Source of the DNA: a virus
Virus record (IMG/VR): IMGVR_UViG_3300009156_000050
Coordinates: 1-42,398 of that record
Direction: 5' to 3' (one strand)
DNA length: 42,398 nt
Shown here: in pieces, positions 9,648 through 19,328 of the stretch
How the letters are laid out: each line of letters begins with the position of its first letter
Position numbering within the stretch: position 1 is the stretch's first letter
Notes under the pieces: model-generated
The model's input: only the letters and a program-made list of their open reading frames with translations
Told to the model about the DNA's origin: nothing
The model's database searches: none
Made by a program: the position numbers and the translations under genes

Positions 9648-9655
9648 CTTTGTAA

Positions 9656-9919: not shown

Positions 9920-9946
9920 TGACATCTCCTATCTAGATTAGTTTCA

Positions 9947-9971
9947 TTATAGGGCATGTTTACGCTGCGAA
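9947..9971 (-). promoter_or_regulatory. 25-bp promoter element, copy 1
   Basis: TCGCAG, 13 bases with C at position 7, TATAAT, then GAAAC. It precedes the 9656-9919 gene. Confidence 0.8.
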
Positions 9972-9973
9972 GC

Positions 9974-10516
9974 TTAACTGACAACCTCTATCTCCCCAGC
10001 TGCCAAACGCGGACCAATTTTCTGAGCCTCCTCCGGAGACATCTCCTCGATTTCCTTCTTGGTTATGACTGTCGGTTTCGACGTTCCGGGAATTGCCGTA
10101 AGATCGGGTTTGCTCTCACCTCTCTCGCCTTCCACGACCCTTGCCGCTTCGTCTGCCATTCCGGCGGGAATAATCCCGTTGACGAACTCGATTGCCGAAT
10201 CAGTGTTTGTAACGAGCTCCATGAACAGCGATGAATAAGCCTCGGTCGAAACAAACTCGTCCCTCAACTCTTGGCTCTTGATGAACCTCTTACCGTCGGG
10301 GGATCGCTTACCGTACGAGGTCAAGATTATGTTCTTGAATTCTTTGATTATGCTCTGATTGTCTTCAGCATCGACGATTCGTTGTAACGCCTCTGACAGA
10401 CCATCCTTATGACTCATCTCGAGTTCAACCAGCTCAGCCTTGGACAGGTGAAAGAAGAAATCCTCGCTCACCGTCTCGCCGTTGAAATCCTCATAAGTGA
10501 TCGTCTTCTTGAGCAC
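9974..10516 (-). CDS. Conserved phage protein, possible tail-assembly-like
   Basis: A 180-residue protein with Y-E-D-F-N-G at residue 8, F-F-F-H-L-S-K-A-E-L-V-E-L-E, Y-G-K-R-S-P-D-G-K-R-F-I-K, T-E-A-Y-S-S-L-F-M-E-L, and F-V-N-G-I-I-P-A. I know the pattern from phage proteins sometimes labelled tail assembly chaperone. Here it sits in the accessory region far from the tape measure, and a better chaperone candidate exists at 30640-31182, so I leave the role open. The GTG start has GGAGAAGGGAG upstream. No own terminator is seen; promoter copy 1 follows immediately. Confidence 0.6.
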   Translation of the reverse strand: MLKKTITYEDFNGETVSEDFFFHLSKAELVELEMSHKDGLSEALQRIVDAEDNQSIIKEFKNIILTSYGKRSPDGKRFIKSQELRDEFVSTEAYSSLFMELVTNTDSAIEFVNGIIPAGMADEAARVVEGERGESKPDLTAIPGTSKPTVITKKEIEEMSPEEAQKIGPRLAAGEIEVVS

Positions 10517-10548
10517 TTTTACTTATTACTCCCTTCTCCTCGAGAGAT

Positions 10549-10800
10549 CTATGGTAATTCTCCTCTTGGATCTTGCAGCTTGATCGATATCACTTCTCTG
10601 ATGCCGTCGATGTACTCGTAGACCTCGATCGGCTCCATTCCGAGTTCTTGAAGGAGATTTATCGCCGCCTCAATTTCGTACTTGACCTCGGCGACGGCAC
10701 TCGTTGTGCAAGCCCCTTCAATCGGCCAGAAATTTCGAGTGATAATTCGAATATGGATGATGGGCGAAGTCGATTGCCATGCACGGTCTCTGATCCGGAG
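10549..10800 (-). other. Reading frame without a start; possible +1 frameshift extension
   Basis: The minus-strand frame is open for 83 codons from 10800 to a TAG at 10549, but has no early ATG, GTG or TTG. The part after the upstream stop reads E-G-A-C-T-T-S-A-V-A-E-V-K-Y-E-I-E then E-L-G-M-E-P-I-E-V-Y-E-Y-I-D-G-I-R-E, which looks like genuine protein. The 10718-11575 gene ends G-A-T-T-G-A; slipping forward one base there (+1) would continue into this frame. Alternatives are an ATT start, a short product from the internal ATG (29 residues), or a sequence error. Confidence 0.4.
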
Positions 10801-11575
10801 TCATCGTTGCGGAGATCTTGACCTCGACTCGATCGTTCGCATTCCAGCCGACATGATCCGAATATGACGTCGGAGGCAAGCCGAGCTCGTCATAGAACTC
10901 GCTCAAGCTGACATGCATGAAGTTGAGCAACTCGTGATTGACCTTGTTCTCGGCTCGTTTGATCTCCTCGACCGTGCTCTGGAAATATCGCCCACTGTGC
11001 AGATCGAAGCAGAGAACTTCACCGGCTCCGGCGATGATGACTTCTCGATTGTTCGGAGGATGCTTGGTCACTCTCTCCTGAGCGATATCGTCTCTGACCT
11101 TCTGCTCTTCCCGTTCACCGATCCTGTCGAACACCTTCCGCTTGTACTCCTGCAGAGATCTCTCCGAGATTGCCGAAGCGACCGTAAGGGCGGCGATCTT
11201 CGACGATGTGATCCTGTGCGCCATGACGATGCAGGTGATCGTGACGGCACAAGTGGTCGCCGGTGGAATATACGCCTTCCAAACCAGCTTGGCCTTCCTG
11301 GTCCTTGTCAGCTTCTCGTCGAATGGAGCCTTGACATCATCTTCGGTCAGTTTTTCGTCCGAAGTCGCCCATTGCTTTGCAACTTCTTCCGCCTTCTTCG
11401 CCGCCATCTTTCGCTCTTCTTCGGCGATCATGTCTGCAGCTCTGAATGTGGCTCGTCCTGTCAAGACCGCGGTTGCAACGGTTCCGACCACCGCGATACT
11501 CGACAAAATGGTAGGAGAATTCTCATTCAGGAGGAACTTTGCTTGCTGAGCTTTTTGAGCCAACCCAAGAATCAT
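10718..11575 (-). CDS. DUF6353-like membrane protein, copy B
   Basis: A 285-residue protein laid out like the copy at 7661-8602: an N-terminal hydrophobic segment (S-S-I-A-V-V-G-T-V-A-T-A-V-L-T-G-R-A-T-F), a second near residue 105 (A-T-T-C-A-V-T-I-T-C-I-V-M-A), a serially similar I-A-A-L-T-V-A-S-A-I-S-E-R-S-L-Q-E-Y block, and V-N-H-E-L-L-N-F-M-H-V-S-L-S-E-F-Y-D-E-L-G-L before the final domain with V-G-W. Inferred paralogue; role unknown. GAGAGG precedes the ATG. It follows the 48-residue membrane peptide gene, and both are read from promoter copy 2. Confidence 0.7.
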   Translation of the reverse strand: MILGLAQKAQQAKFLLNENSPTILSSIAVVGTVATAVLTGRATFRAADMIAEEERKMAAKKAEEVAKQWATSDEKLTEDDVKAPFDEKLTRTRKAKLVWKAYIPPATTCAVTITCIVMAHRITSSKIAALTVASAISERSLQEYKRKVFDRIGEREEQKVRDDIAQERVTKHPPNNREVIIAGAGEVLCFDLHSGRYFQSTVEEIKRAENKVNHELLNFMHVSLSEFYDELGLPPTSYSDHVGWNANDRVEVKISATMTPDQRPCMAIDFAHHPYSNYHSKFLAD

Positions 11576-11722
11576 CTATAGACCTCTCACTTTGACGGGC
11601 TTTCGCATTTCCCGGATGAAGATCCAGATCAACCAAAATCCGAAGGTGATTATGGTCATTAGACAGTCACCCAGAAACCTGAAGAAACCGTACCGGTTCT
11701 GCTGAACGATAATTACGTACAT
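11576..11722 (-). CDS. 48-residue membrane peptide
   Basis: A frame of 49 codons with an excellent ribosome site (AGGAGG, 4 bases before ATG). The peptide begins M-Y-V-I-I-V-Q-Q-N, then has a hydrophobic aromatic segment (T-I-I-T-F-G-F-W-L-I-W-I-F-I, about residues 23-36) and a basic tail. Its TAG directly touches the start of the DUF6353-like gene. It is the first gene after the hairpin leader at 11733-11809. No family is recognised. Confidence 0.7.
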   Translation of the reverse strand: MYVIIVQQNRYGFFRFLGDCLMTIITFGFWLIWIFIREMRKPVKVRGL

Positions 11723-11732
11723 ACCACCTCCT

Positions 11733-11809
11733 AAAAAATAAAACGATAAGGGCGCCGCCCCCGATCATCTGCCAGGGGCGGATAGCTCCCAAGACGGGAG
11801 CTTCACCTC
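11733..11809 (-). ncRNA. Two-hairpin leader with U-rich end
   Basis: Downstream of promoter copy 2 the minus strand forms two strong hairpins: AGCTCCC/GGGAGCT (11784-11802, loop of 5) and CCGCCCC/GGGGGCGG (11755-11781). A T-rich run at 11733-11744 follows, and then the AGGAGG of the next gene. The second hairpin plus U-run looks like an intrinsic terminator inside a 5' leader, so transcription into the 48-residue and DUF6353-like genes may be attenuated. It could instead simply end read-through from upstream. Confidence 0.6.
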
Positions 11810-11834
11810 ACTAAAGGCCAAGTTATCGCTGCGA
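11810..11834 (-). promoter_or_regulatory. 25-bp promoter element, copy 2
   Basis: TCGCAG, 13 bases with C at position 7, TTTAGT. The upstream hexamer starts directly after the TAA of the 11835-11942 gene. Confidence 0.65.
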
Positions 11835-11942
11835 TTACTCCTCTCCTTGCCGACAGTCCGGATCGTTTGGATCACATGCCGGATATACAGCCTCGTCTTC
11901 GACTTCCACTTCTTCCGTCTCGACCGTATCCGGTTCGTCCAT
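11835..11942 (-). CDS. 35-residue acidic Cys-containing peptide
   Basis: A peptide starting M-D-E-P-D-T-V-E-T-E-E, highly acidic, with C-D-P-N-D-P-D-C near the end, a possible metal-binding or disulfide pair. AGGAGG precedes the ATG at 11942. An upstream in-frame ATG would read through the promoter and structured RNA, so it is rejected. The gene is the only one read from promoter copy 3. Role unknown; an acidic DNA-mimic is possible but speculative. Confidence 0.6.
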   Translation of the reverse strand: MDEPDTVETEEVEVEDEAVYPACDPNDPDCRQGEE

Positions 11943-11962
11943 AGCGACCTCCTTTTGGAGAG

Positions 11963-12033
11963 AAAAAAAAGAGAGAGCCTGAAGGGTGCCGATGTCCTTC
12001 ATTGCAATGTCCTTAAGGCTGGACAACTCTCTC
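11963..12033 (-). ncRNA. 71-nt structured RNA element, copy A
   Basis: It begins GAGAGAG directly after the TATAAT-like hexamer of promoter copy 3 and ends CTCTCTC plus eight Ts. Inside are a stem TGTCC/GGACA closing the loop AGCCTTAA, a palindrome ATTGCAAT, and a stem TGAAGG/CCTTCA closing a loop with CATCGGCAC. A near twin lies at 12575-12645 with matching base changes in both stems. The AGCCT of the loop can also pair with AGGCT just before the closing arm, an alternative terminator fold. Likely an attenuator, riboswitch-like leader or processed small RNA. Confidence 0.7.
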
Positions 12034-12058
12034 ATAAGAGGGCATGTATTCTCTGCGA
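12034..12058 (-). promoter_or_regulatory. 25-bp promoter element, copy 3
   Basis: TCGCAG, 13 bases with C at position 7, TCTTAT. It starts immediately after the TAA of the 12059-12277 gene and drives RNA copy A. Confidence 0.65.
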
Positions 12059-12277
12059 TTAGGCGGCCTTCACCGTCGTTGCGTCTTCTTGGGGGAAAAG
12101 TCGCATCGCCTCAACGGCTCGAACCACGTTGGTCGCTTCTTCTTCGTCACGGAGACGATAGCCCACACAACGATGTCCATACCAGACGTACCAGAGATCG
12201 GGAGTACGTGTATGTCGAACCCAAATATACACTCCCTGTTCACGAAGCTCGCGGCACCATTTGTGTAGTTCGCTCAT
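12059..12277 (-). CDS. Small hypothetical protein
   Basis: A 72-residue protein starting M-S-E-L-H-K-W-C-R-E-L-R-E-Q-G-V-Y-I-W-V-R-H and including L-W-Y-V-W-Y-G-H-R-C-V-G-Y-R-L. The start at 12277 has GAGG 8 bases upstream; an alternative ATG at 12286 would overlap the upstream stop. It is the second gene of the unit read from promoter copy 4. No family recognised. Confidence 0.65.
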   Translation of the reverse strand: MSELHKWCRELREQGVYIWVRHTRTPDLWYVWYGHRCVGYRLRDEEEATNVVRAVEAMRLFPQEDATTVKAA

Positions 12278-12278
12278 A

Positions 12279-12554
12279 TCACTCATCCTCGAAATCGTGG
12301 GTCTTCTGATGGAATATCCCGCAGGGAACGAAACCCTTCTCATCGTCGATCCGAACGAAGCCGCGACGCATGACACTGGTCTGATAGCCGTCCTTGAAGT
12401 AGAACGTCTTCCCGTCTTGCATCGCAGACTCGAGTGAGAAACGAACGATGCAGCAGATGGGATAACCAAATCTTCGCCCTTTACGCCAATGGAACAGGAA
12501 CTGGTTGATCTTGCCCATGCGTGGAATGGTCATTGAAATATAGCCGTGATCCAT
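12279..12554 (-). CDS. Small Cys-Cys hypothetical protein
   Basis: A 91-residue protein with F-H-W-R-K-G-R-R-F-G-Y-P-I-C-C-I-V-R-F-S near residues 21-40 and V-P-C-G-I-F-H near 76. The pattern of a basic stretch followed by P-x-C-C-I is familiar from actinophage hypotheticals. AAAGGG precedes the ATG at 12554; a longer frame would run through the structured RNA and is rejected. It is the first gene behind RNA copy B. Confidence 0.7.
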   Translation of the reverse strand: MDHGYISMTIPRMGKINQFLFHWRKGRRFGYPICCIVRFSLESAMQDGKTFYFKDGYQTSVMRRGFVRIDDEKGFVPCGIFHQKTHDFEDE

Positions 12555-12574
12555 ACAGCCCTTTCTGAGAAAAG

Positions 12575-12645
12575 AAAAAAAGAGAGAGCCTGAGGGCGTG
12601 CCGATGACCCTCATCGCGATATCGTTAAGGCTCGATGACTCTCTC
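12575..12645 (-). ncRNA. 71-nt structured RNA element, copy B
   Basis: Same layout as copy A: GAGAGAG directly after promoter copy 4, then ATCG/CGAT closing the identical loop AGCCTTAA, palindrome ATCGCGAT, TGAGGG/CCCTCA closing a loop with CATCGGCAC, and CTCTCTC followed by seven Ts. Compared with copy A, paired positions change together (G-C to A-U, C-G to G-C, A-U to G-C), while loops are conserved, which supports an RNA structure under selection. Confidence 0.7.
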
Positions 12646-12670
12646 ATAATAGGGTAGGTAATTTCTGCGA
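12646..12670 (-). promoter_or_regulatory. 25-bp promoter element, copy 4
   Basis: TCGCAG, 13 bases with C at position 7, TATTAT. It drives RNA copy B and the genes at 12279-12554 and 12059-12277. Confidence 0.75.
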
Positions 12671-12675
12671 AAATG

Positions 12676-12731
12676 AAAAAAAGTGAAGAGCGGGGCCCTC
12701 ACAACCCCCTATCGGACGGATGACGCTCTTC
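12676..12731 (-). ncRNA. Candidate stand-alone small RNA (about 56 nt)
   Basis: It begins GAAGAGCG directly after promoter copy 5 and closes with CGCTCTTC, then AC and seven Ts. The next promoter (copy 4) starts only 5 bases later. There is no ribosome site and no gene between, so promoter plus terminator appear to make a short RNA. A frame starting at the ATG that overlaps the -10-like hexamer lacks a ribosome site and would run through the terminator and next promoter. Confidence 0.65.
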
Positions 12732-12756
12732 ATTAAAGGGTAGGGAATTTCTGCGA
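12732..12756 (-). promoter_or_regulatory. 25-bp promoter element, copy 5
   Basis: TCGCAG, 13 bases with C at position 7, TTTAAT. It sits 5 bases after the stop of the 12762-13214 gene. Confidence 0.7.
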
Positions 12757-12761
12757 TTCGT

Positions 12762-13214
12762 CTATATCTCCTCGAAGATTCTGAAGTCTCCCTTAGGACG
12801 ACGAAAGATCTTCCCCTTGGCATCCGGAAGTTTTCCGTACAGATGAGCTGATAAATCGGTGTCTGAGATGCCATGAGCTCGAGCTGCTTGTTGTTGATTG
12901 AAATATCCCACGTTATCGCTCGGCTTTTTTCTGCCAAAATATCCACCCACGTAACTACCATCATCCACGACTATGACGGGATTCCCACGTCTGAAATCTT
13001 TGGGAACCGAAACTTCTCTGAGATTGCTGGGTGGACCAGTAAAGACGACAGTGGGCGCAGCAGGTGTGTTGAACGTAACGTATCGTTTCGTCACAACACA
13101 TCCGACGACGAAGGCTCCGGTAATAGCGATACCGGTGTAGATGCCCTGATTTCGTTTTACATGTGTTTTGGTCTTGCCGTATATCACTTTGATGTTTTCT
13201 CTACCGAATTTCAT
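12762..13214 (-). CDS. Membrane protein with DNA-binding-like C-terminus
   Basis: A 150-residue protein. Basic N-terminus, one membrane segment (about residues 24-42: Y-T-G-I-A-I-T-G-A-F-V-V-G-C-V-V), a linker, and a C-terminal region N-Q-Q-Q-A-A-R-A-H-G-I-S-D-T-D-L-S-A-H-L-Y-G, resembling the helix-turn-helix modules (NUMOD-like) that phages place at protein ends. The start at 13214 has AGGAG 8 bases upstream; longer frames have no ribosome site. It would combine membrane anchoring with nucleic acid recognition, a tentative reading. Confidence 0.65.
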   Translation of the reverse strand: MKFGRENIKVIYGKTKTHVKRNQGIYTGIAITGAFVVGCVVTKRYVTFNTPAAPTVVFTGPPSNLREVSVPKDFRRGNPVIVVDDGSYVGGYFGRKKPSDNVGYFNQQQAARAHGISDTDLSAHLYGKLPDAKGKIFRRPKGDFRIFEEI

Positions 13215-13262
13215 ACTTCTTACTCCTTTCGATATGGTAACAATATGTGACAACAACTTCTC

Positions 13263-13287
13263 ATAATAGGCTATGTTTTGTTGGCGA
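13263..13287 (-). promoter_or_regulatory. 25-bp promoter element, copy 6
   Basis: TCGCCA (diverged), 13 bases with C at position 7, TATTAT. It precedes the 12762-13214 gene. Confidence 0.65.
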
Positions 13288-13306
13288 TAGAGAAAACAGA
13301 TAGGGC

Positions 13307-13642
13307 TTATAGCAGGGAAAATAGGTAGAATATCCCCGCAATTACCAGCAAAAATGCGCTTGGGACGGCCACATCCATGATGTTGTCGAACCAATGGATT
13401 GGCTTCTTGTCGACGAAGGCGTAGATCGTCTGCTCGATCTCTCGAATCAGGTAATATCCAATCGCGACTGCAATGCCGTAGAACTCGGCGCCATGTCCGA
13501 CTGAATATGCGATCAATCCGACGACTAGGGCGATGATGACCGCGAAGACCGTATGGGCGATCCAGGTCTTCCAGTCGGGTCCGTGCGTCCATTCTGAGAT
13601 CTTGTCGCGGATATCTCGGCGGCGTTCCGCTTGCGTTCTCAT
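13307..13642 (-). CDS. Three-segment membrane protein
   Basis: A 111-residue protein with a charged N-terminus (R-T-Q-A-E-R-R-R-D-I-R), the pattern D-W-K-T-W-I-A-H, and three hydrophobic segments near residues 32-52, 56-70 and 88-110. I recall similar proteins in actinophages annotated only as membrane proteins; three segments of this size also fit some holins. The start ATG at 13642 has TTGGAGG upstream. It is the last gene of the operon read from promoter copy 7. Confidence 0.7.
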   Translation of the reverse strand: MRTQAERRRDIRDKISEWTHGPDWKTWIAHTVFAVIIALVVGLIAYSVGHGAEFYGIAVAIGYYLIREIEQTIYAFVDKKPIHWFDNIMDVAVPSAFLLVIAGIFYLFSLL

Positions 13643-13644
13643 GA

Positions 13645-13866
13645 TTATGTCCTCCAACCAACCACAAATGCCGGTTGTCTTCGATGTTCCCCGAATCGAT
13701 TCTTTCGCCAGGGAGTGAGTAAGATTGCCTTTGACGCGTATTTGTTCCCTTCTCGATCATTCGTCCATGCGTTATCGATCATGGGCGCACCTTCACCTTG
13801 TCGGCACCAGGTCAAGATCAATCGTCCGAACCGTCGTCCTCGATAGGGTAAACTTTCTTCAGACAT
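13645..13866 (-). CDS. Small basic hypothetical protein
   Basis: A 73-residue basic protein, Y-R-G-R-R-F-G-R-L-I-L-T-W-C near the start and several Trp residues. GGGAGG lies directly before the ATG. Its stop is 2 bases before the next start, so translation is probably coupled. No family recognised. Confidence 0.6.
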   Translation of the reverse strand: MSEESLPYRGRRFGRLILTWCRQGEGAPMIDNAWTNDREGNKYASKAILLTPWRKNRFGEHRRQPAFVVGWRT

Positions 13867-13902
13867 CCTCCCTCTCCTTAGACGTTCTCATGACTCCCTT
13901 TC

Positions 13903-14130
13903 TTAAATCGGCGTTACAACGAGAAACGGGTCGTCCTCGACCTCTCCCCCCAGAAAAATGCCTCGAACGTGGTACACGTTGCCGGTTTCGGTCCAGATAG
14001 CAAAACGTTTCCCACCCATGAAGTCCACGCATAGCCATGGACCGGTATTTTGCATCTTGTATGGCACTGCCGCCGGGTACGCTGCCAACAGCAGATCCAG
14101 CCCTTGACGCGTTTTCGATATCTCAGCCAT
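13903..14130 (-). CDS. Small hypothetical protein
   Basis: A 75-residue protein with L-D-L-L-L-A-A-Y-P, W-L-C-V-D-F-M-G-G-K-R-F-A-I-W and a beta-rich appearance. GGTGG precedes the ATG, which overlaps the upstream membrane peptide gene by 8 bases. No family recognised. Confidence 0.6.
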   Translation of the reverse strand: MAEISKTRQGLDLLLAAYPAAVPYKMQNTGPWLCVDFMGGKRFAIWTETGNVYHVRGIFLGGEVEDDPFLVVTPI

Positions 14131-14230
14131 TTAGCCACCAAACCAGTAAGCCGGAAAGAAATCCGCCGATGTAACCGATACTGAACACGGCGAGTAGAGC
14201 TTGTTCGATTTTGTCGGGATGCTTCTTCAT
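14123..14230 (-). CDS. 35-residue membrane peptide
   Basis: A frame of 36 codons whose ATG overlaps the upstream stop (ATGA). After a basic start (M-K-K-H-P-D-K) comes one hydrophobic segment (about residues 11-33) ending W-W-L-N-G. Overlaps at both ends with neighbours support translation as part of this operon. Role unknown. Confidence 0.6.
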   Translation of the reverse strand: MKKHPDKIEQALLAVFSIGYIGGFLSGLLVWWLNG

Positions 14231-14397
14231 ATCTTCTCTTTTGCCACGTGGATGATTACTTGTCGAAGTGTGTCTCCTCCAAAATATACGATCATGATTC
14301 CGACGACGTTCCTGCCCAGAGCATCGACAACCCCGCTGTAATCGACCGGCTCGCTCTTGGGCACCTCTTCCTTATTTGGCTCCGGATCCTTCACCAT
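14227..14397 (-). CDS. 56-residue hypothetical protein
   Basis: A short protein: charged Pro/Glu-rich start (M-V-K-D-P-E-P-N-K-E-E), then a hydrophobic C-terminal half (V-V-G-I-M-I-V-Y-F-G-G). I chose the ATG at 14397 with AGGTGAAA upstream; it overlaps the preceding gene by 26 bases. A longer frame to 14493 lies wholly inside that gene and is less likely. Confidence 0.6.
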   Translation of the reverse strand: MVKDPEPNKEEVPKSEPVDYSGVVDALGRNVVGIMIVYFGGDTLRQVIIHVAKEKI

Positions 14398-14632
14398 TTT
14401 CACCTGAAACGCCCGGTTCCGAAACAATATAGATCCTTTCCACAGTTTGTTCAGGGATAAGGACGTACTTACCCTCGATTTTCTCGTCATCACCCTCTAG
14501 CTTGAGTACGATGAAAGGACTTGAAAACGGGCCCAACGGCTGCATGCCTTCGAACTTCCCCTCGAATGCTCCGTGACCCAAGGTGTGGATTATCACTTCT
14601 TTACCTAGTAAGTGATTCCCCCAGTCGATCAT
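14372..14632 (-). CDS. Small beta-rich hypothetical protein
   Basis: An 86-residue protein: G-K-E-V-I-I-H-T-L-G-H-G-A-F-E-G-K-F-E-G-M then S-P-F-I-V-L-K-L-E-G, resembling a small SH3/Sm-like barrel by pattern only. The ATG overlaps the upstream stop (ATGA at 14629-14632). Function unknown. Confidence 0.65.
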   Translation of the reverse strand: MIDWGNHLLGKEVIIHTLGHGAFEGKFEGMQPLGPFSSPFIVLKLEGDDEKIEGKYVLIPEQTVERIYIVSEPGVSGENGEGSGAK

Positions 14633-14919
14633 TTCTCTCCTCTCGCCTCTCTCCTTTTCAAAGCCTGTTTATAACCTCGAAAAACAGTGGATGGATACCA
14701 CGTCTTTTTACCTCCGGGAGTTAGAATCCCACGGCTCATGAGAACTTTGGCCATCTTCCCATAGGTTGTGCCTTCTCTGACCATTTCGATGATGAGATTG
14801 TCGACTTCGATCCCGGGATCGTTTGGCTTTGGGCCTTTGGGATATTCTTTTGTTGAAAAAGTCGCACGTATTGTGATCTCTTCCTCACAATGTGGACAAC
14901 GAATTTGAATAAGGGCCAT
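14629..14919 (-). CDS. Small protein with recombinase-type HTH region
   Basis: A 96-residue protein with a single N-terminal C-P-H-C pair and a C-terminal region (about residues 44-90) like the helix-turn-helix of large serine recombinases: I-I-E-M-V-R-E-G-T-T-Y-G-K-M-A-K-V-L then R-G-I-L-T-P-G-G-K-K-T-W-Y-P-S-T-V. No catalytic domain is present, so it may only bind DNA. TTTGGAGG precedes the ATG. Candidate small regulator. Confidence 0.65.
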   Translation of the reverse strand: MALIQIRCPHCEEEITIRATFSTKEYPKGPKPNDPGIEVDNLIIEMVREGTTYGKMAKVLMSRGILTPGGKKTWYPSTVFRGYKQALKRREARGEK

Positions 14920-14940
14920 TTGTCCTCCAAACTTAGTAAC

Positions 14941-15150
14941 TCATGAGGGCTCCCCGATACTTATAGAGGGATATTGCGTTCGGCTGATGCTGAACTGCCT
15001 GCACGAGTTGTAGATTTCCTCTTCGTCCTTGATGTTCCGAATCAACGAGAGACCGGAACGATGCATGGCTTGCGTGATGAAGTCGAGCGGAGAAAGACCG
15101 TTGTGTCGGGCCATGTCGTAGATCTCGGACCATTGATCTCGGTTGATCAC
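14941..15150 (-). CDS. Small hypothetical protein
   Basis: A 69-residue protein with I-Y-D-M-A-R-H-N-G-L-S-P-L-D-F-I-T-Q-A-M-H near residue 10. It starts at a GTG overlapping the upstream stop (GTGA). No family recognised; part of the promoter copy 7 operon. Confidence 0.6.
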   Translation of the reverse strand: MINRDQWSEIYDMARHNGLSPLDFITQAMHRSGLSLIRNIKDEEEIYNSCRQFSISRTQYPSISIGEPS

Positions 15151-15344
15151 AGCTTCTCCTTTCGAAGTACGTTCAGAATATCTCCTTTTACCTCATTCCA
15201 TTCGTCAAGGAGCTCATTCATCTTCTCGTCAACATCATCGACATCCTGCTCGGTGAAGGCTCGACCCGATCTGAGCTTTTTTCCGATGAGGTTTACGCGA
15301 AGTGACAAATTTCTTCGACGAATATTCAAGTCGGATGGTGGCAT
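15147..15344 (-). CDS. Small helical hypothetical protein
   Basis: A 65-residue charged protein, mostly helical, with E-Q-D-V-D-D-V-D-E-K-M-N-E-L-L-D-E-W-N-E-V in the centre, a likely coiled coil. I chose the ATG at 15344 because AAAGG lies upstream; longer frames run into the structured leader. It is the first gene of a nine-gene operon behind promoter copy 7. Confidence 0.6.
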   Translation of the reverse strand: MPPSDLNIRRRNLSLRVNLIGKKLRSGRAFTEQDVDDVDEKMNELLDEWNEVKGDILNVLRKEKL

Positions 15345-15365
15345 GTAATCCTTTCGCATAGAGAG

Positions 15366-15426
15366 AAAAAATATAAAGAGACGGCTCACGCTTTTACAGC
15401 CGGTGAGTTACTTCCTGTCTCTTTCT
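15366..15426 (-). ncRNA. Structured leader RNA with terminator-like end
   Basis: Starting 2 bases after promoter copy 7, AAAGAGAC pairs with GTCTCTTT before a T-rich run. Inside, CTCAC can pair with GTGAG, or CGGCT with AGCCG; the two inner pairings exclude each other. An intrinsic terminator for the gene upstream already stands at 15457-15484, so this second terminator-like element behind the promoter is not needed for upstream termination. It could attenuate the nine-gene operon that follows. Confidence 0.6.
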
Positions 15427-15451
15427 ATAAAAGGCTAAGTTTTTCCTGCGA
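15427..15451 (-). promoter_or_regulatory. 25-bp promoter element, copy 7
   Basis: TCGCAG, 13 bases with C at position 7, TTTTAT. It is the only array promoter seen before the operon 15344 to 13307. Confidence 0.65.
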
Positions 15452-15456
15452 TCGAC

Positions 15457-15484
15457 AAAAAAGGAAAGCCTGTGTAGACTCTCC
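15457..15484 (-). terminator. Intrinsic terminator
   Basis: Stem GGAGAGTC/GGCTTTCC with loop TACACA and six Ts, after the 15494-15658 gene. Confidence 0.85.
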
Positions 15485-15493
15485 TTTCTGGAA

Positions 15494-15658
15494 CTACTCC
15501 TCGGTGGGCTTGTCAGCCTTCCGCTTGTTCCACAGAGAACGGACCTTGCCTCCGGTGAACCGAACGGCGTCGACAGTGGCGCTTGCAGCGACACTACCGG
15601 CCGTCGTTGCGGCTCCGAAGACGAATCCGCCCTTGGCTAGAACAGCATACGGTGGCAT
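15494..15658 (-). CDS. 54-residue small protein
   Basis: A peptide with a Gly/Ala-rich, weakly hydrophobic half (A-K-G-G-F-V-F-G-A-A-T-T-A-G-S-V-A-A-S-A) and a basic tail (K-V-R-S-L-W-N-K-R-K-A). AGGAGG stands 4 bases before the ATG. It has its own promoter (copy 8) and terminator (15457-15484). No family recognised; possibly membrane-associated. Confidence 0.65.
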   Translation of the reverse strand: MPPYAVLAKGGFVFGAATTAGSVAASATVDAVRFTGGKVRSLWNKRKADKPTEE

Positions 15659-15680
15659 ATTGCCTCCTTGTAGTGGTTTC

Positions 15681-15705
15681 ATTATAAGACGTGTATTTTC
15701 TGCGA
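15681..15705 (-). promoter_or_regulatory. 25-bp promoter element, copy 8
   Basis: TCGCAG, 13 bases with C at position 7, TATAAT, then GAAACC; drives the 15494-15658 gene. Confidence 0.85.
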
Positions 15706-15713
15706 TTTCCAGC

Positions 15714-15742
15714 AAAAAAAGAGAGCCTATGTAGACTCTCCT
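15714..15742 (-). terminator. Intrinsic terminator
   Basis: Stem GAGAGTC/GGCTCTC around TACATA with seven Ts, about 30 bases after the 15772-15897 gene. Confidence 0.85.
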
Positions 15743-15771
15743 TTTCGAAGCCGTCGAGCCTCGGGAATTAT

Positions 15772-15897
15772 TCACATTGTTGCTGTTCGCATCCGTCGTC
15801 GAACGGCGTCGGCCGTGAGCAAGTACAGGACTGCCGCGAGGAAGACCAGACGTCTCACCGTCACCTGTCGACGAACGAACGAAAGCATCTTGCGCAT
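15772..15897 (-). CDS. 41-residue basic membrane peptide
   Basis: A peptide with a strongly basic start (M-R-K-M-L-S-F-V-R-R-Q-V-T-V-R-R), a hydrophobic stretch (L-V-F-L-A-A-V-L-Y-L-L, about residues 17-27) and a basic end. AAGGAG precedes the ATG. The frame sits alone between promoter copy 9 and a terminator. Role unknown. Confidence 0.6.
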   Translation of the reverse strand: MRKMLSFVRRQVTVRRLVFLAAVLYLLTADAVRRRMRTATM

Positions 15898-15920
15898 AAT
15901 CGCTCCTTGGTTGAGGTTTC

Positions 15921-15945
15921 ATAATAGGCGAGGTAATATCTGCGA
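15921..15945 (-). promoter_or_regulatory. 25-bp promoter element, copy 9
   Basis: TCGCAG, 13 bases with C at position 7, TATTAT, then GAAACC; drives the 15772-15897 gene. Confidence 0.8.
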
Positions 15946-15946
15946 C

Positions 15947-15977
15947 AAAAAAGGAAAGCGCTTGTTAGGCGCCTTCC
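15947..15977 (-). terminator. Intrinsic terminator overlapping a stop codon
   Basis: Stem GGAAGGCGC/GCGCTTTCC with six Ts. The TAA of the 15965-16156 gene lies in the hairpin, so the last codons form its 5' arm. Confidence 0.85.
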
Positions 15978-16156
15978 TTCGTCGAGATGTACGCAATCTC
16001 GGGGAAAATATCTCCGACGATCTGCGTCGCGATCTTGGCCTTCCGCTCCTTCGTCTTTGCGGAGTCGAACTCGTCCCGTTGTTCGGGCGTGATCTCCTTC
16101 GCGATGACACGAATGACGCGGAGAGCCGTGATCGGATGCTTGATAATGCGAAGCAT
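15965..16156 (-). CDS. Small hypothetical protein
   Basis: A 63-residue protein: L-R-I-I-K-H-P-I-T-A-L-R-V-I-R-V-I-A-K-E-I-T-P-E-Q-R, amphipathic helices, then E-R-K-A-K-I-A. The motif E-R-K-A-x-I-A also appears in the cassette protein at 16867-17034 (E-R-K-A-E-I-A), perhaps a distant relation. AAAGGA precedes the ATG; monocistronic cassette. Confidence 0.65.
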   Translation of the reverse strand: MLRIIKHPITALRVIRVIAKEITPEQRDEFDSAKTKERKAKIATQIVGDIFPEIAYISTKEGA

Positions 16157-16186
16157 TTTGTTCCTTTCTGTTGTGTTTTATCTCTC

Positions 16187-16211
16187 ACTATGAAACATGT
16201 ATTTTCTGCGA
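16187..16211 (-). promoter_or_regulatory. 25-bp promoter element, copy 10
   Basis: TCGCAG, 13 bases with C at position 7, CATAGT; drives the 15965-16156 gene. Confidence 0.75.
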
Positions 16212-16221
16212 TTTTGCAGGC

Positions 16222-16252
16222 AAAAAAGGAAAGTCCTTGTAGACTCTCCTTT
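16222..16252 (-). terminator. Intrinsic terminator
   Basis: Stem GGAGAGTC/GACTTTCC around TACAAG with six Ts, just after the 16259-16495 gene. Confidence 0.85.
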
Positions 16253-16258
16253 CTGGAA

Positions 16259-16495
16259 CTACTTCCAGACGAACACTTGCTGATCGCGGTGAAGCCCGAT
16301 GGCCCGATGCCGTATGGGATGATCATGATTGGCTTCGATCGCCAGCTTGAGCTCGAAGAGGTCGTTCTTCCATTCGTAGATATTACGAATGGTCGCTCGA
16401 CTCTCGAGATCGATCTGGATCAGATCGCCGATCTGAAGATCCTCCACACGGGCAACGTGCTGGGTGAGCTTCTTTCTGCGAAACAACTTAAGCAT
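16259..16495 (-). CDS. Small beta-rich hypothetical protein
   Basis: A 78-residue protein with a basic start (M-L-K-L-F-R-R-K-K-L) and V-E-D-L-Q-I-G-D-L-I-Q-I-D-L, R-A-T-I-R-N-I-Y-E-W-K-N-D-L-F-E-L-K-L-A. The G-D-x-I-x-I pattern suggests a small beta barrel. It resembles the cassette protein at 19101-19328 in plan (basic start, N-D-K-I-R-V-Q, aromatic middle). Monocistronic; AAAGGAG before the ATG. Confidence 0.65.
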   Translation of the reverse strand: MLKLFRRKKLTQHVARVEDLQIGDLIQIDLESRATIRNIYEWKNDLFELKLAIEANHDHPIRHRAIGLHRDQQVFVWK

Positions 16496-16516
16496 TTTTC
16501 TCCTTTAGTAGGTTTC

Positions 16517-16541
16517 ATTATGAAACATGTATTTTCTGCGA
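16517..16541 (-). promoter_or_regulatory. 25-bp promoter element, copy 11
   Basis: TCGCAG, 13 bases with C at position 7, CATAAT, then GAAACC; drives the 16259-16495 gene. Confidence 0.8.
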
Positions 16542-16550
16542 TTTGCAGGC

Positions 16551-16580
16551 AAAAAAGAGAGCCAGTGTAGACTCTCCTTT
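16551..16580 (-). terminator. Intrinsic terminator
   Basis: GAGAGTC pairs with GGCTCTC, six Ts follow; after the 16597-16785 gene. Confidence 0.85.
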
Positions 16581-16596
16581 TCGATCCTGGTAGGGA

Positions 16597-16785
16597 TCAG
16601 TCCTTGATCAGGCCGCTGACGAGCCCCTCGCGCTCCTTCTGCAACTCCTTGATTTTTTCTTGCAACTCTTTGATTTCTTCGTCGATATCGTCGATCCGAC
16701 TTTTATCAATAGAGTCGCTCAACCAAATGGATGCTTTGAGAACGCCTATACCGGCTCCTTTAGCAGCTTTTCCAATTTTGGACAT
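16597..16785 (-). CDS. Small coiled-coil protein
   Basis: A 62-residue protein: Gly/Ala-rich N-terminal helix, then a clear coiled coil (D-I-D-E-E-I-K-E-L-Q-E-K-I-K-E-L-Q-K-E-R-E, about residues 33-53). Probably oligomeric; role unknown. AAAGGAG precedes the ATG; monocistronic cassette. Confidence 0.7.
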   Translation of the reverse strand: MSKIGKAAKGAGIGVLKASIWLSDSIDKSRIDDIDEEIKELQEKIKELQKEREGLVSGLIKD

Positions 16786-16805
16786 GATACTCCTTTGTAG
16801 GTTTC

Positions 16806-16830
16806 ACTATAGGGAAGGTAATATCTACGA
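16806..16830 (-). promoter_or_regulatory. 25-bp promoter element, copy 12
   Basis: TCGTAG, 13 bases with C at position 7, TATAGT, then GAAACC; drives the 16597-16785 gene. Confidence 0.75.
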
Positions 16831-16858
16831 AAAAAAGGAAAGTCCGTGTGGACTCTCC
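16831..16858 (-). terminator. Intrinsic terminator
   Basis: Stem GGAGAGTCC/GGACTTTCC with loop ACAC and T-run; after the 16867-17034 gene. The run of Ts abuts promoter copy 12. Confidence 0.85.
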
Positions 16859-16866
16859 TCTTCGAA

Positions 16867-17034
16867 TCAGTCCTCCTTGCAGTTACACTGCGGAGTCATC
16901 GAGACTCGGATGATGGCGATCTCGTTGGCGATCTCAGCCTTGCGCTCGGGCGACGTATTTACACGTCCGTGCTCGTGCACAAGATTGTCGATTGCCTCAT
17001 AGATGCGCTTATCGATGTCCTCGATTGCACTCAT
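16867..17034 (-). CDS. 55-residue protein with C-terminal Cys pair
   Basis: A peptide beginning M-S-A-I-E-D-I-D-K-R-I-Y-E-A-I-D, helical, ending P-Q-C-N-C-K-E-D; the C-x-C could bind metal. AAAGGAG precedes the ATG. Own promoter (copy 13) and terminator. No family recognised. Confidence 0.65.
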   Translation of the reverse strand: MSAIEDIDKRIYEAIDNLVHEHGRVNTSPERKAEIANEIAIIRVSMTPQCNCKED

Positions 17035-17063
17035 AGTGGTCTCCTTTTGGTAGGATTGGTTTC

Positions 17064-17088
17064 ATTATAAGACATGTAATATCTGCGA
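17064..17088 (-). promoter_or_regulatory. 25-bp promoter element, copy 13
   Basis: TCGCAG, 13 bases with C at position 7, TATAAT, then GAAACC; drives the 16867-17034 gene. Confidence 0.85.
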
Positions 17089-17116
17089 AAAAGGAAAGTC
17101 CTTGTAGACTCTCCTT
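17088..17116 (-). terminator. Intrinsic terminator
   Basis: Stem GGAGAGTC/GACTTTCC around TACAAG with five Ts that run into promoter copy 13; after the 17122-17316 gene. Confidence 0.8.
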
Positions 17117-17121
17117 CTTGA

Positions 17122-17316
17122 TTACAACTCAATTTTTGGAATGTTGATAACGCGTCCATCGACCAAGGTGACGTCGCCAGCGATATCCTCGTTGAAACAC
17201 TCCACTGCGGCTTCCCAAAAAGCGAGGTCACGCTCTTCTTTAGTCGTAGTGGAAATGTTCTTCCGATTCTCTTCGATGACGGCTTTCATCTTGGCCGTTG
17301 AATCTTTGATACTCAT
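17122..17316 (-). CDS. Small hypothetical protein
   Basis: A 64-residue protein with a basic helical N-terminus, E-R-D-L-A-F-W-E-A-A-V-E-C-F-N-E-D-I and a C-terminal beta pair (V-T-L-V-D-G-R-V-I-N-I-P). I chose the ATG at 17316 (AAAGG upstream) over a TTG at 17322. Monocistronic cassette. Confidence 0.65.
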   Translation of the reverse strand: MSIKDSTAKMKAVIEENRKNISTTTKEERDLAFWEAAVECFNEDIAGDVTLVDGRVINIPKIEL

Positions 17317-17340
17317 TTCCAATCCTTTCGTTGTGGTTTC

Positions 17341-17365
17341 ATTATAGGCTCGGTAATATCTGCGA
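17341..17365 (-). promoter_or_regulatory. 25-bp promoter element, copy 14
   Basis: TCGCAG, 13 bases with C at position 7, TATAAT, then GAAACC; drives the 17122-17316 gene. Confidence 0.85.
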
Positions 17366-17394
17366 AAAAGGAAAGCGCATGGTTAGCGCCTTCC
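17365..17394 (-). terminator. Intrinsic terminator overlapping a stop codon
   Basis: Stem GGAAGGCGC/GCGCTTTCC with five Ts. The TAA of the 17383-17619 gene lies in the loop, as at 15947-15977. Confidence 0.85.
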
Positions 17395-17619
17395 CTGTAG
17401 GTGTTGATCCGCAAAGCGGTTCAATACGATCTTGCCGAACTGGTCGAGCTCCATGTCCTTGTTGTATACGTGATTGGCCATGGTGTTCAGCCAAGCGATG
17501 TCCTGCTTGTGGGAATCCTTGAGGATATTCCTTTCGCGACGGACTCGGTTGTACCGAACCACCATTGCCGCTCCGTAAAACGGCGACGTGTATGCAAGAG
17601 CAGCATCAATTAAAGTCAT
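17383..17619 (-). CDS. Small hypothetical protein
   Basis: A 78-residue protein: an N-terminal weakly hydrophobic segment (L-I-D-A-A-L-A-Y-T-S-P-F-Y-G-A-A-M-V-V) followed by a basic, helical region (R-Y-N-R-V-R-R-E-R-N). Possibly membrane-associated. AGGAG precedes the ATG; monocistronic cassette. Confidence 0.65.
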   Translation of the reverse strand: MTLIDAALAYTSPFYGAAMVVRYNRVRRERNILKDSHKQDIAWLNTMANHVYNKDMELDQFGKIVLNRFADQHLQGRR

Positions 17620-17642
17620 ATCAAACTCCTGTTTGTGGTTTC

Positions 17643-17667
17643 ATTATAGGACCGGTAATTTCTGCGA
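17643..17667 (-). promoter_or_regulatory. 25-bp promoter element, copy 15
   Basis: TCGCAG, 13 bases with C at position 7, TATAAT, then GAAACC; drives the 17383-17619 gene. Confidence 0.85.
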
Positions 17668-17696
17668 AAAACTAAAGCCCCTGTAGGGGCCTTAGT
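17667..17696 (-). terminator. Intrinsic terminator
   Basis: Stem ACTAAGGCCCC/GGGGCTTTAGT with a 4-base loop and five Ts; after the 17697-17888 gene. Confidence 0.85.
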
Positions 17697-17888
17697 CTAT
17701 TGCTCTGCCTTCAGATATTTGATCCTCTGATCGAGGGCATCTGCTGTAGCTAGAAGACCGTCTCGAGTATCTTGCAAATGCTTGATCTCCAGCTCAACGC
17801 CGTTTTCTTTCAAGAATTTGCCCGCATCCTCGAGATTCTCTCCGAGCGTATGAAACAGTATTTCCCACGATGGTAAAGGGTTTTCCAT
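17697..17888 (-). CDS. Small helical hypothetical protein
   Basis: A 63-residue acidic, helical protein: L-G-E-N-L-E-D-A-G-K-F-L-K-E-N-G-V-E-L-E-I-K then a second helix with A-L-D-Q-R-I-K-Y-L-K. Coiled-coil character. AAAGGAG precedes the ATG; monocistronic cassette. Confidence 0.65.
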   Translation of the reverse strand: MENPLPSWEILFHTLGENLEDAGKFLKENGVELEIKHLQDTRDGLLATADALDQRIKYLKAEQ

Positions 17889-17910
17889 TATTCTCCTTTA
17901 GACAGATCTC

Positions 17911-17935
17911 ATTATACACCGTGTTTTTCATGCGA
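17911..17935 (-). promoter_or_regulatory. 25-bp promoter element, copy 16
   Basis: TCGCAT, 13 bases with C at position 7, TATAAT; drives the 17697-17888 gene. Confidence 0.75.
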
Positions 17936-17966
17936 AAAAAGAGAGCCCATGTTCTGGGCCCTCCTT
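17935..17966 (-). terminator. Intrinsic terminator
   Basis: Stem GGAGGGCCCA/TGGGCTCTC, short loop, six Ts; after the 17971-18234 gene. Confidence 0.85.
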
Positions 17967-17970
17967 TTGA

Positions 17971-18234
17971 TCAGTCGTCTTCCACGATGTCGTCGAGGGA
18001 TATCTCCATCAATCCAGTCTTGAGCAATCCTCTTGCTCGATACGTCGGCATGAGTCCGTTCGCGTAGAACGTCGGATATGAGCTGCCTTTCTCTCGGTCC
18101 GGGTTCTCTGCATAGCAGACAACTACCCAGTCCAAGAGAATATCGCCTGGCTCAAAATCTTCGCCTTCCGCGATTACTTCTCTCAGGACGGTCTCGATCT
18201 TGTCGGATTGTATCTTGTCTTGATGAATAGACAT
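17971..18234 (-). CDS. Conserved phage protein (DUF7213-like)
   Basis: An 87-residue protein: L-L-D-W-V-V-V-C-Y-A-E-N near residue 33, a variable loop, then L-M-P-T-Y-R-A-R-G-L-L-K-T-G-L near 61. A D-W-V-V-V strand followed by R-A-x-G-L-L is typical of a small actinophage family that I remember as DUF7213; tentative. The ATG at 18234 has AAAGGAGG upstream; a longer frame would include the promoter. Monocistronic cassette. Confidence 0.65.
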   Translation of the reverse strand: MSIHQDKIQSDKIETVLREVIAEGEDFEPGDILLDWVVVCYAENPDREKGSSYPTFYANGLMPTYRARGLLKTGLMEISLDDIVEDD

Positions 18235-18267
18235 TTTCCTCCTTTCGATATGGTGGATTAGATTCTC

Positions 18268-18292
18268 ATAATAGGGGAAGGAATATCTACGA
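18268..18292 (-). promoter_or_regulatory. 25-bp promoter element, copy 17
   Basis: TCGTAG, 13 bases with C at position 7, TATTAT; drives the 17971-18234 gene. Confidence 0.75.
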
Positions 18293-18294
18293 CG

Positions 18295-18326
18295 AAAAAG
18301 GAGAGCCCATGTTTCAGGCTCTCTCT
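18295..18326 (-). terminator. Intrinsic terminator
   Basis: Stem GAGAGCC/GGCTCTC with a 9-base loop and five Ts; directly after the 18330-18698 gene. Confidence 0.85.
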
Positions 18327-18329
18327 TTC

Positions 18330-18698
18330 TCAATCTAAATATCCGAACGCTAGTAGTGGACCTTCACGACGATCATCCATGATGAAGACGGCTCCGTTTT
18401 TCTCGTACCAGGCTCTCAGCTCTTCATTGCTTTGTATCGCGTCGTCGCCGACATCAACATCAAATATCTTTGCTCTGATAAGCAACGTAAGTTCGTGCTT
18501 GTGGCAGTACTCGTCGATTTCTCGTAGGAGTTCTGTTCCTTCGCCCTTACGTCGATTCGTCGAACGCATGTCATACAGATGTGCGTGCGAGCGATCGTCT
18601 AGCGGTATAGCAATGTTGGCCGAAGCGCCCTTGTGCTTGAAATATACGAGCCAGGTCTTCTCCGGATTTTCTTCGTGAGGAACGGTCTTTACAATCAT
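18330..18698 (-). CDS. GNAT-family acetyltransferase
   Basis: A 122-residue protein with the acetyl-CoA loop R-R-K-G-E-G (about residues 49-54) preceded by the strand H-L-Y-D-M-R-S and followed by helix T-E-L-L-R-E-I-D-E-Y-C; later E-L-R-A-W-Y-E-K-N-G-A-V-F, the usual C-terminal GNAT signature. It would transfer an acetyl group to an unknown amine: a protein, metabolite or antibiotic. It is the most recognisable enzyme in the cassette array and a candidate host-modifying protein. AAGGAG precedes the ATG; own promoter and terminator. Confidence 0.8.
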   Translation of the reverse strand: MIVKTVPHEENPEKTWLVYFKHKGASANIAIPLDDRSHAHLYDMRSTNRRKGEGTELLREIDEYCHKHELTLLIRAKIFDVDVGDDAIQSNEELRAWYEKNGAVFIMDDRREGPLLAFGYLD

Positions 18699-18719
18699 GT
18701 CGCTCCTTAGATAGATTTC

Positions 18720-18744
18720 ATTATAGGCGAGGTAATATCTGCGC
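18720..18744 (-). promoter_or_regulatory. 25-bp promoter element, copy 18
   Basis: GCGCAG, 13 bases with C at position 7, TATAAT; drives the GNAT gene. Confidence 0.75.
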
Positions 18745-18783
18745 CTTGATGCGAAATATCCCCCCGGGGTTTTTTGGGAATTG
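18745..18783 (-). other. Inserted spacer with CCCCGGGG palindrome
   Basis: Other cassettes have at most about 10 bases between terminator U-run and promoter; here there are about 39. The spacer holds CCCCGGGG, an ATATTTCGCATC stretch reminiscent of the promoter hexamer, and a C/A-rich end. It may be a scar of a lost cassette. On the plus strand the palindrome is followed by six Ts, weakly terminator-like. Confidence 0.4.
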
Positions 18784-18813
18784 AAAAAAGGAAAGTCCTT
18801 GTAGACTCTCCTC
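18784..18813 (-). terminator. Intrinsic terminator
   Basis: Stem GGAGAGTC/GACTTTCC around TACAAG with six Ts; after the 18821-18997 gene. Confidence 0.85.
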
Positions 18814-18820
18814 TTTGAAA

Positions 18821-18997
18821 CTAGGCTTCCAACTCGGCGGTCTCTGTTTCGTACTCACGCTGGTCTCGACGATCCATGTACTTCATGTATCCGTAAGCAG
18901 CCACGATCAGAGCTGCGTTGAGAGCAACGTACTGAACGGGGTGGTTCCGGATCCAGTTGTACTGGACCTGTTGAGATTTGCGGTAAAGCTCGAACAT
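18821..18997 (-). CDS. 58-residue membrane peptide
   Basis: A peptide with an N-terminal polar helix (M-F-E-L-Y-R-K-S-Q-Q-V-Q-Y-N-W-I-R), a hydrophobic stretch (Y-V-A-L-N-A-A-L-I-V-A-A-Y-G-Y, about residues 23-37) and an acidic tail. Probable single-pass membrane protein. AGGAG precedes the ATG; own promoter (copy 19) and terminator. Confidence 0.65.
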   Translation of the reverse strand: MFELYRKSQQVQYNWIRNHPVQYVALNAALIVAAYGYMKYMDRRDQREYETETAELEA

Positions 18998-19025
18998 TTG
19001 AATCTCCTGTTAGAGGGATGGTTTC

Positions 19026-19050
19026 ATTATAAAACATGTAATTTCTGCGA
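19026..19050 (-). promoter_or_regulatory. 25-bp promoter element, copy 19
   Basis: TCGCAG, 13 bases with C at position 7, TATAAT, then GAAACC; drives the 18821-18997 gene. Confidence 0.85.
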
Positions 19051-19060
19051 TTTAGCAGGC

Positions 19061-19091
19061 AAAAAAGGAAAGTCTGTGTAGACTCTCCTTT
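19061..19091 (-). terminator. Intrinsic terminator
   Basis: Stem GGAGAGTC/GACTTTCC around a TACACA-type loop with six Ts; after the 19101-19328 gene. Confidence 0.85.
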
Positions 19092-19100
19092 CGAACTTAC

Positions 19101-19328
19101 CTAGTTCTCGTAGAGTTCTAGTTTTGTGTTCTTTGGGACGGTAAGCGTACCCATGTACGAACCCCGTCCGCCGTTGTACGAGTGGTACCAGAGTTCGAAC
19201 GTAATCTCCTCGCCGATCCAAATGTTATGGATAACGGCGACGATATTCTGAACTCTGATCTTGTCGTTCGGCTTCACGCGATTCGCTTTTGCGTAACGCT
19301 TCTTGTCCTTGTTGAACAAATTGAACAT
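19101..19328 (-). CDS. Small beta-rich hypothetical protein
   Basis: A 75-residue protein: basic start (M-F-N-L-F-N-K-D-K-K-R-Y-A-K-A-N-R-V), then K-P-N-D-K-I-R-V-Q-N-I-V and a run of beta strands (F-E-L-W-Y-H-S-Y-N-G-G-R-G-S-Y-M-G-T-L-T-V). AAAGGAG precedes the ATG; monocistronic cassette. No family recognised. Confidence 0.65.
   Translation of the reverse strand: MFNLFNKDKKRYAKANRVKPNDKIRVQNIVAVIHNIWIGEEITFELWYHSYNGGRGSYMGTLTVPKNTKLELYEN

Follow-up and report, generated by a model that had tools for sequence, protein, structure and literature searches.

The window analysed here, the whole of a 42,398-bp virus record, has 50% GC and carries all of its genes on the minus strand. Its source looks like an uncultured actinobacterial phage, and the original prediction of an actinophage-like genome is supported. 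A 25-bp motif has 21 confident copies in the window, all of them on the minus strand within one promoter-rich region; most stand directly 5' of small genes, and the structural genes have none. Two of these copies, with motif scores of 34.9 and 28.0, lead directly into two related 71-nt elements (twins A and B), each of which starts with GAGAGAG and ends with CTCTCTC and a T-run (8 T in A, 7 T in B). Their sequences and coordinates had been given correctly, as had their place between a promoter copy (12670-12646 and 12058-12034) and a gene, with a U-run at the end; they are to be read on the minus strand, like all the genes, and in both copies the U-run ends 20 nt 5' of the gene start. The features of the locus are listed below, where a cassette is a promoter motif followed by a closing helix and a T-run, as defined further on.

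9946..19789, minus strand: promoter-rich region to which the 21 confident motif copies of the window are confined
11738..11809, minus strand: structured leader with two strong predicted hairpins and a U-rich end, then AGGAGG (promoter 11834-11810)
11835..11942, minus strand: 35-aa ORF (MDEPDTVE...) 3' of twin A, Shine-Dalgarno AGGAGG, an orphan in the fetched loci
11963..12033, minus strand: twin RNA A, predicted three-way junction when folded alone
12034..12058, minus strand: promoter motif of twin A, TCGCAGAGAATACATGCCCTCTTAT, its last base adjoining the predicted RNA start
12279..12554, minus strand: 91-aa ORF (MDHGYISM...) 3' of twin B, an orphan in the fetched loci
12575..12645, minus strand: twin RNA B, predicted three-way junction when folded alone
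12646..12670, minus strand: promoter motif of twin B, TCGCAGAAATTACCTACCCTATTAT, its last base adjoining the predicted RNA start
12676..12731, minus strand: third cassette, GAAGAGCG...CGCUCUUC-AC-U7, stand-alone, with its own promoter (12756-12732)
15366..15426, minus strand: cassette AGAAAGAGAC...GUCUCUUUAU-U6, leader type (promoter 15451-15427)

The 35-aa and 91-aa ORFs are unlike each other, and there is no promoter between the U-run of twin A and the start of the 35-aa ORF. Only 5 nt separate the third cassette (12731-12676) from the promoter of twin B, which comes next, and the leader stretch 11738-11815 folds with a z-score of -3.1. The cassettes of the window adjoin a gene that we call D (12762-13214) on its 3' side; distant homologues of gene D (23-25% identity) in Pherobrine, ReqiPepy6 and locus L241 also have cassettes directly 3', with other cores. 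Elsewhere in the window, gene-end terminators between 15457 and 19100 form repeat family D4 (9 copies), in which GGAGAGTCTACA-N-GACTTTCC recurs with an unchanging loop, and usually sit just 5' of the next promoter, two phrog_2152 paralogues (unknown function) occur in this one phage (7661-8602 and 10718-11575), and tandem 24-bp repeats at 39996-40115 apparently lie within a coding region.

The predicted parts of the two RNAs are as follows.

12033-12026 with 11978-11971, minus strand: outer stem of twin A
12025-12021 with 12012-12008, minus strand: stem 1 of twin A, loop AGCCUUAA at 12020-12013
12008-12001, minus strand: palindrome of twin A, AUUGCAAU
12001-11996 with 11985-11980, minus strand: stem 2 of twin A, loop ACAUCGGCAC
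11970-11963, minus strand: U-run of twin A
12645-12637 with 12590-12582, minus strand: outer stem of twin B
12636-12633 with 12624-12621, minus strand: stem 1 of twin B, loop AGCCUUAA at 12632-12625
12620-12613, minus strand: palindrome of twin B, AUCGCGAU
12613-12607 with 12597-12591, minus strand: stem 2 of twin B, loop CAUCGGCAC
12581-12575, minus strand: U-run of twin B

Both copies share this fold (outer stem of 8-9 pairs, stem 1 of 4-5 and stem 2 of 6-7), with energies of -23.2 and -25.1 kcal/mol and z-scores of -2.5 and -2.7; 3 of 200 and 1 of 200 shuffles, respectively, folded as well. The loops are fixed, as had been noted, with AGCCUUAA on stem 1 and CAUCGGCAC on stem 2 (in the (A)CAUCGGCAC form) invariant, and a 3-bp kissing contact between GCC of loop 1 and GGC of loop 2 is possible, a contact that nested folding cannot score. 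The switch between two folds that had also been proposed, by pairing of AGCC with GGCU, did not hold up: the alternative has a predicted probability of 0.3-0.7% and is 3-5 kcal/mol worse in both copies. With this fold below 1% in both twins, an attenuator or riboswitch with two exclusive folds, one of them a terminator, is not supported, ligand- or protein-driven switching apart.

Between twins A and B there are 10 substitutions and a single 1-nt gap. Six of the 10 substitutions make up three double compensatory changes among the 18 predicted pairs (G-C to A-U, C-G to G-C and A-U to G-C) with no one-sided break, in agreement with the compensatory stem changes originally described, and under a random-substitution null at least three double compensations arose in 65 of 200,000 trials (simulated p about 3e-4). 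A fourth compensated pair, spotted post hoc, preserves the central palindrome (ATTGCAAT/ATCGCGAT). By fold and substitution pattern, the twins look like genuine structured RNAs.

We built a covariance model (R1) from the two twin sequences only, the search that had been suggested for finding homologues, and it yielded no significant third member in 88 relatives' loci, 120+14 pattern-matched loci and 46 whole relatives; matches scoring near 20 bits were for the most part short terminators that had nothing but GAGAGAG/CTCTCTC in common with the twins. A blastn search of the twins against 50,697 phages and a loop-pattern scan of 84,980 species genomes (GTDB) gave chance-level matches only, and a GTDB pattern match in Lachnoanaerobaculum (L236) was discarded as apparently inside a coding region and lacking a U-run. 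In the searched collections, which may omit records very close to the window, the twin sequence family is known only from the two copies in the window. The earlier statement that no Rfam family fits was borne out: Rfam 15 gave nothing at gathering score in the window and, below it, chance-level snoRNA matches (E 1-2.5). In other cassette-rich loci it returned tRNAs and one Pistol ribozyme only, the latter above gathering score on the contig of a relative (L180, 19705-19756).

We then counted the motif TCGCARAAAWWACAYGCCCTATAAT in 84 relatives' loci, mostly picked by their primase-polymerase (55-84% identical), and found 478 copies on the coding strand versus 2 on the other. Numbering the first base after TATAAT as 0, the motif has blocks TCGCA (-25 to -21), ACA (-14 to -12) and TATAATGARA (-6 to +3), with strong conservation unbroken through +3 and a purine at base 0 in 476 of the 478 copies; no -35 hexamer is evident at 17 bp spacing. 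Apparently the same promoter family stands 5' of small genes in cluster DJ, where a 50-bp motif with 5 copies in Gordonia phage Vardy was interpreted as sigma-70; unlike the motif use described here, that paper leaves structured RNAs unmentioned (PMC9671010).

We defined a cassette as the 25-bp motif followed by a helix of at least 7 pairs from offset 0 or 1 and then a T-run, a class to which both twins belong with 7 perfect pairs from offset 0 and T7/T8. Many motif copies lead into such a predicted RNA where a ribosome-binding site might have been expected. A perfect helix of at least 7 pairs at offset 0/1 occurs in 60 of 424 distinct leaders versus 5.5 with swapped 5' ends, and 53 of these 60 have a T-run (at least 5 T in 10 nt) 3' of the helix versus a 9% background, all leader and cassette counts being drawn from related contigs and hence not independent. 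After the cassette, an ORF with a Shine-Dalgarno sequence comes before any promoter in 47 of 81 cases, and another promoter comes first in 18 of 81. One recurrent cassette, GACACGAAUGUGUAGGUG..CACAGUUUUCGUUGGGCUGUG, aligns over ~110 nt among ten loci (L164, L167, L173, L175, L177, L180, L184, L189, L193 and L194); of its 20 predicted pairs, 12 show double compensation, and where it was run against Rfam it had no match. It precedes unrelated small genes, or directly another promoter, which argues that the cassette RNAs act by themselves. The sister cassettes of the twins have unrelated cores, and non-tRNA cassettes are marked in none of the GenBank annotations examined. What is new is a twin family of two copies within a new and much larger class of phage RNA cassettes; the original prediction was right in outline and too narrow, missing the family-wide cassettes and the 5' arm that starts at the motif edge. 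The predicted structure, its compensation, the promoter motif and the cassette class can all be read from the sequence itself.

For the start of the RNA, we chose cassettes by pairing from offset 4 inward and then tested bases 3, 2 and 1, using 36 cassettes (about 12 expected by chance). Bases +3, +2 and +1 pair with their register partners beyond composition (p 0.005, 0.003 and 0.001), the result for base 0 is equivocal (p 0.17, with many G-U pairs), and positions -1 to -6 do not rise above background. Because covariation with the 3' arm reaches +1 and ends upstream, the first purine after TATAAT seems to be where the RNA starts. With a sigma-A -10 box, the start would be expected 6-7 nt downstream. 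A sigma-70 promoter would have TATAAT centred 10 bp before the start and a -35 element 17 bp upstream; here TATAAT is present and a -35 element is not evident, and the putative start, directly after TATAAT, would be too close for a sigma-70 -10 box.

A phrog_4291 protein of ~900 aa is encoded by related phages, in 30 of the 37 records tested (G002 among them by a short HTH-level match only), and its usual annotation is HTH protein or hypothetical (for example, L126 33573-36269 and L186 16616-19276). The ADFDGD motif is invariant in 65 and 9 phrog_4291 sequences, and an AlphaFold model (65 sequences, pLDDT 81.7) suggests the double-psi beta-barrels and D-F-D-G-D of a two-barrel RNA polymerase. 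The best PDB matches of the model are QDE-1 (E 1e-7), phage gp64 (1e-7) and P74-26 gp62 (9e-7), then cellular beta', at low global TM-scores (about 0.3), and the claim is of a shared core only. A weak match of the protein to Pfam RdRP (best E 1e-4) stays below the curated cut-off, some members have terminal HTHs that match sigma-70 region 4, a direct profile comparison with YonO gave no match, and a search with PF00940 (T7-like polymerase) gave 0 matches, the controls likewise being without a match. The polymerase was found in 25 of 30 long contigs picked by motif alone versus 1 of 20 control contigs, a co-occurrence that may merely mark the clade; Enterococcus primase-polymerase matches, taken as a control lacking RNA polymerase, were too distant (25% over 30%). 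The window record is truncated, stopping short of the usual place of the polymerase gene, which is absent there.

The Lactococcus phage CHPC971 has a motif CACA-N6-ACA..CTATAGT, followed by AGAA (11 copies, 0 reverse), and the Faecalibacterium phage oengus has CGCG-N6-ACA/TCA..CTTTAT, followed by GGA (15 copies, 0 reverse). Both motifs are diverged with matching spacing, and the polymerases of these phages are 37-43% identical; since phages of other phyla that have the polymerase also have diverged, like-spaced motifs, the motif appears to follow the polymerase across host phyla. Several oengus leaders (L359 2284-8244) open with a tiny hairpin at the motif edge (GGAG..CTCC, GAGA..TCTC, GGAAG..CTTCC), often with a T(-1):A extension; a small-hairpin test at offset 0 alone was not significant in oengus, as this extra pair lengthens many of the hairpins. 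In the Lactococcus and Faecalibacterium phages, a cassette and tRNA-like genes also lie directly 3' of the same motif (L360 30437 and 26288, L359 2908).

We consider it probable, at roughly 60%, that the twins are trans-acting small noncoding RNAs made from self-contained cassettes of a phage two-barrel polymerase. The 25-bp phage promoter would end at the base before the RNA, and its most likely user would be the single-chain two-barrel RNA polymerase of the phage, not host sigma-A. The transcript would start at the first G of GAGAGAG, its 5' end would pair with the arm just 5' of the U-run, bringing both ends into one helix, and transcription would stop at the U-run, giving a stable RNA of ~64-71 nt. 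The three-way junction would then display the two fixed loops (AGCCUUAA and CAUCGGCAC) and the palindrome as the likeliest partner contacts, and the RNA would act in trans, serving as a decoy or pairing through its loops; read-through, or transcription from upstream, would probably supply the downstream genes. The transcript ends, the identity of the polymerase and action in trans are what we infer here; trans action is most likely because the stems drift while the loops stay fixed and the downstream genes are unrelated, and it is further favoured by the existence of stand-alone cassette relatives. Some observations count against parts of this reading: ORFs with Shine-Dalgarno sequences lie directly 3' of both twin U-runs, which fits a leader role, and TATAAT is a perfect sigma-A -10 box, which speaks against the phage polymerase.

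The same RNAs could be made by the host polymerase with sigma-A at TATAAT, starting 6-7 nt downstream and leaving the outer stem partly outside the RNA. The fit of TATAAT to the consensus and the published interpretation of the motif (PMC9671010) keep this a serious if unlikely option, against which stand the pairing and covariation of the first bases after TATAAT with the terminator arm, the conservation unbroken through +3 with its almost invariable purine, the lack of an evident -35 hexamer at 17 bp, and the Faecalibacterium motif, which ends CTTTAT with the same -24/-13 elements. We hold it a little less likely again that the twins are cis leaders or attenuators, whose structure and U-run would stop transcription unless a signal blocks closing of the outer stem. 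No promoter separates U-run from Shine-Dalgarno sequence in either twin, and the 47/81 ORF-first cassettes fit such a role; however, 18/81 stand alone before another promoter, the homologous cassette family precedes unrelated genes, the genes 3' of the twins are unrelated to each other, and the competing fold has a probability below 1%.

Other explanations are far less probable. In the put sites of HK022, two stem-loops directly after an early promoter act in cis on RNA polymerase, and the sites are neither closed by an outer stem nor end in a U-run. A put-like RNA, a nascent leader that binds RNA polymerase so that terminators are ignored, is suggested by two near-identical ~70-nt two-hairpin leaders directly 3' of promoters in one phage, as with putL/putR; but the twins have a closing outer stem in which the 5' end takes part and a U-run as their last element, their sister cassettes have unrelated cores, and the sequence offers no evidence of cis antitermination for them, so that we think this very unlikely. 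The chance seems slightly smaller still that the elements are coding and form the beginning of a leaderless ORF that shares its frame with the downstream gene (MRELSSLKDIAM.. / MRESSSLNDIAM..). The frame is open across both twins and 7 of the 10 substitutions fall at its third codon positions, a bias that taken alone would hint at coding, yet the indel throws part of the element out of frame between copies, the complementary paired changes and the U-run are not predicted, and the ATG falls within the promoter motif and precedes the putative start. A leader peptide was rejected, twin B having no start signal and the indel shifting the frame. Least probable of all are DNA-level palindromes, operators or chance instead of RNA: the central 8-mer is perfectly palindromic and unable to form a hairpin alone, but the arms lie 47 nt apart, the U-run is strand-specific, and the transcript start pairs with the terminator arm in dozens of cassettes. 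Intrinsic terminators share with the twins a stem followed by a U-run; in the twins, by contrast, the 5' arm would be the first bases of the transcript and the loop a 47-nt folded domain.

Trans-acting RNAs made by a phage two-barrel polymerase would have partial parallels. A precedent comes from P23-45, whose two-barrel phage polymerase has dedicated motifs (PMC10770324): the likeness to P23-45 gp64 / P74-26 gp62 lies in the polymerase type, the dedicated conserved upstream motif and the structural match, whereas here the motif and the host group are different, the polymerase has sigma-region-4-like HTH ends, and the motif would drive many tiny noncoding cassettes. YonO of SPbeta is likewise a single-chain phage polymerase; its promoter was stated to be unknown, and its mapped start was placed upstream of yonK, 5' of an unannotated noncoding RNA (PMC5467207). 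It differs in serving one late operon and in having no detectable profile match to the clade polymerase. In SPbeta (L361), the 1.7 kb before yonK (9140-10850) are without an annotated gene.

More tentatively, and at somewhat less than even odds, the phage clade may use its own two-barrel polymerase with built-in sigma-like HTHs to start RNA after TATAAT, making a large, fast-changing repertoire of 5'-end-sealed small RNAs (tRNA-like, tandem-loop and three-way-junction), probably decoys or regulators of host systems, of which the twins would be two. If so, this would be a new phage small-RNA class across hundreds of actinophages, with cultured isolates in Gordonia, Arthrobacter, Streptomyces and Rhodococcus, and it would provide a concrete promoter and predicted start for a two-barrel single-chain RNA polymerase, YonO's having been left open in 2017. 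The targets of such fast-evolving RNAs may be host defence or RNA-processing enzymes.

Among the cassettes of relatives, several have two or three hairpins whose loop is identical within one RNA and different between RNAs (L192 3938-4022, L141 4225-4308, L149 3678-3993, L148 3058, L136 405, L126 11689, L169 6410 and L125 16085-16450), as if the repeated loops were evolving in concert. Others are tRNA-shaped (L126 9613-9709, L169 338-421 and L170 1052), the anticodon arm seemingly capped by a tetraloop (CCGC-GCAA-GCGG) and not by a 7-nt anticodon loop, and are possible tRNA decoys.
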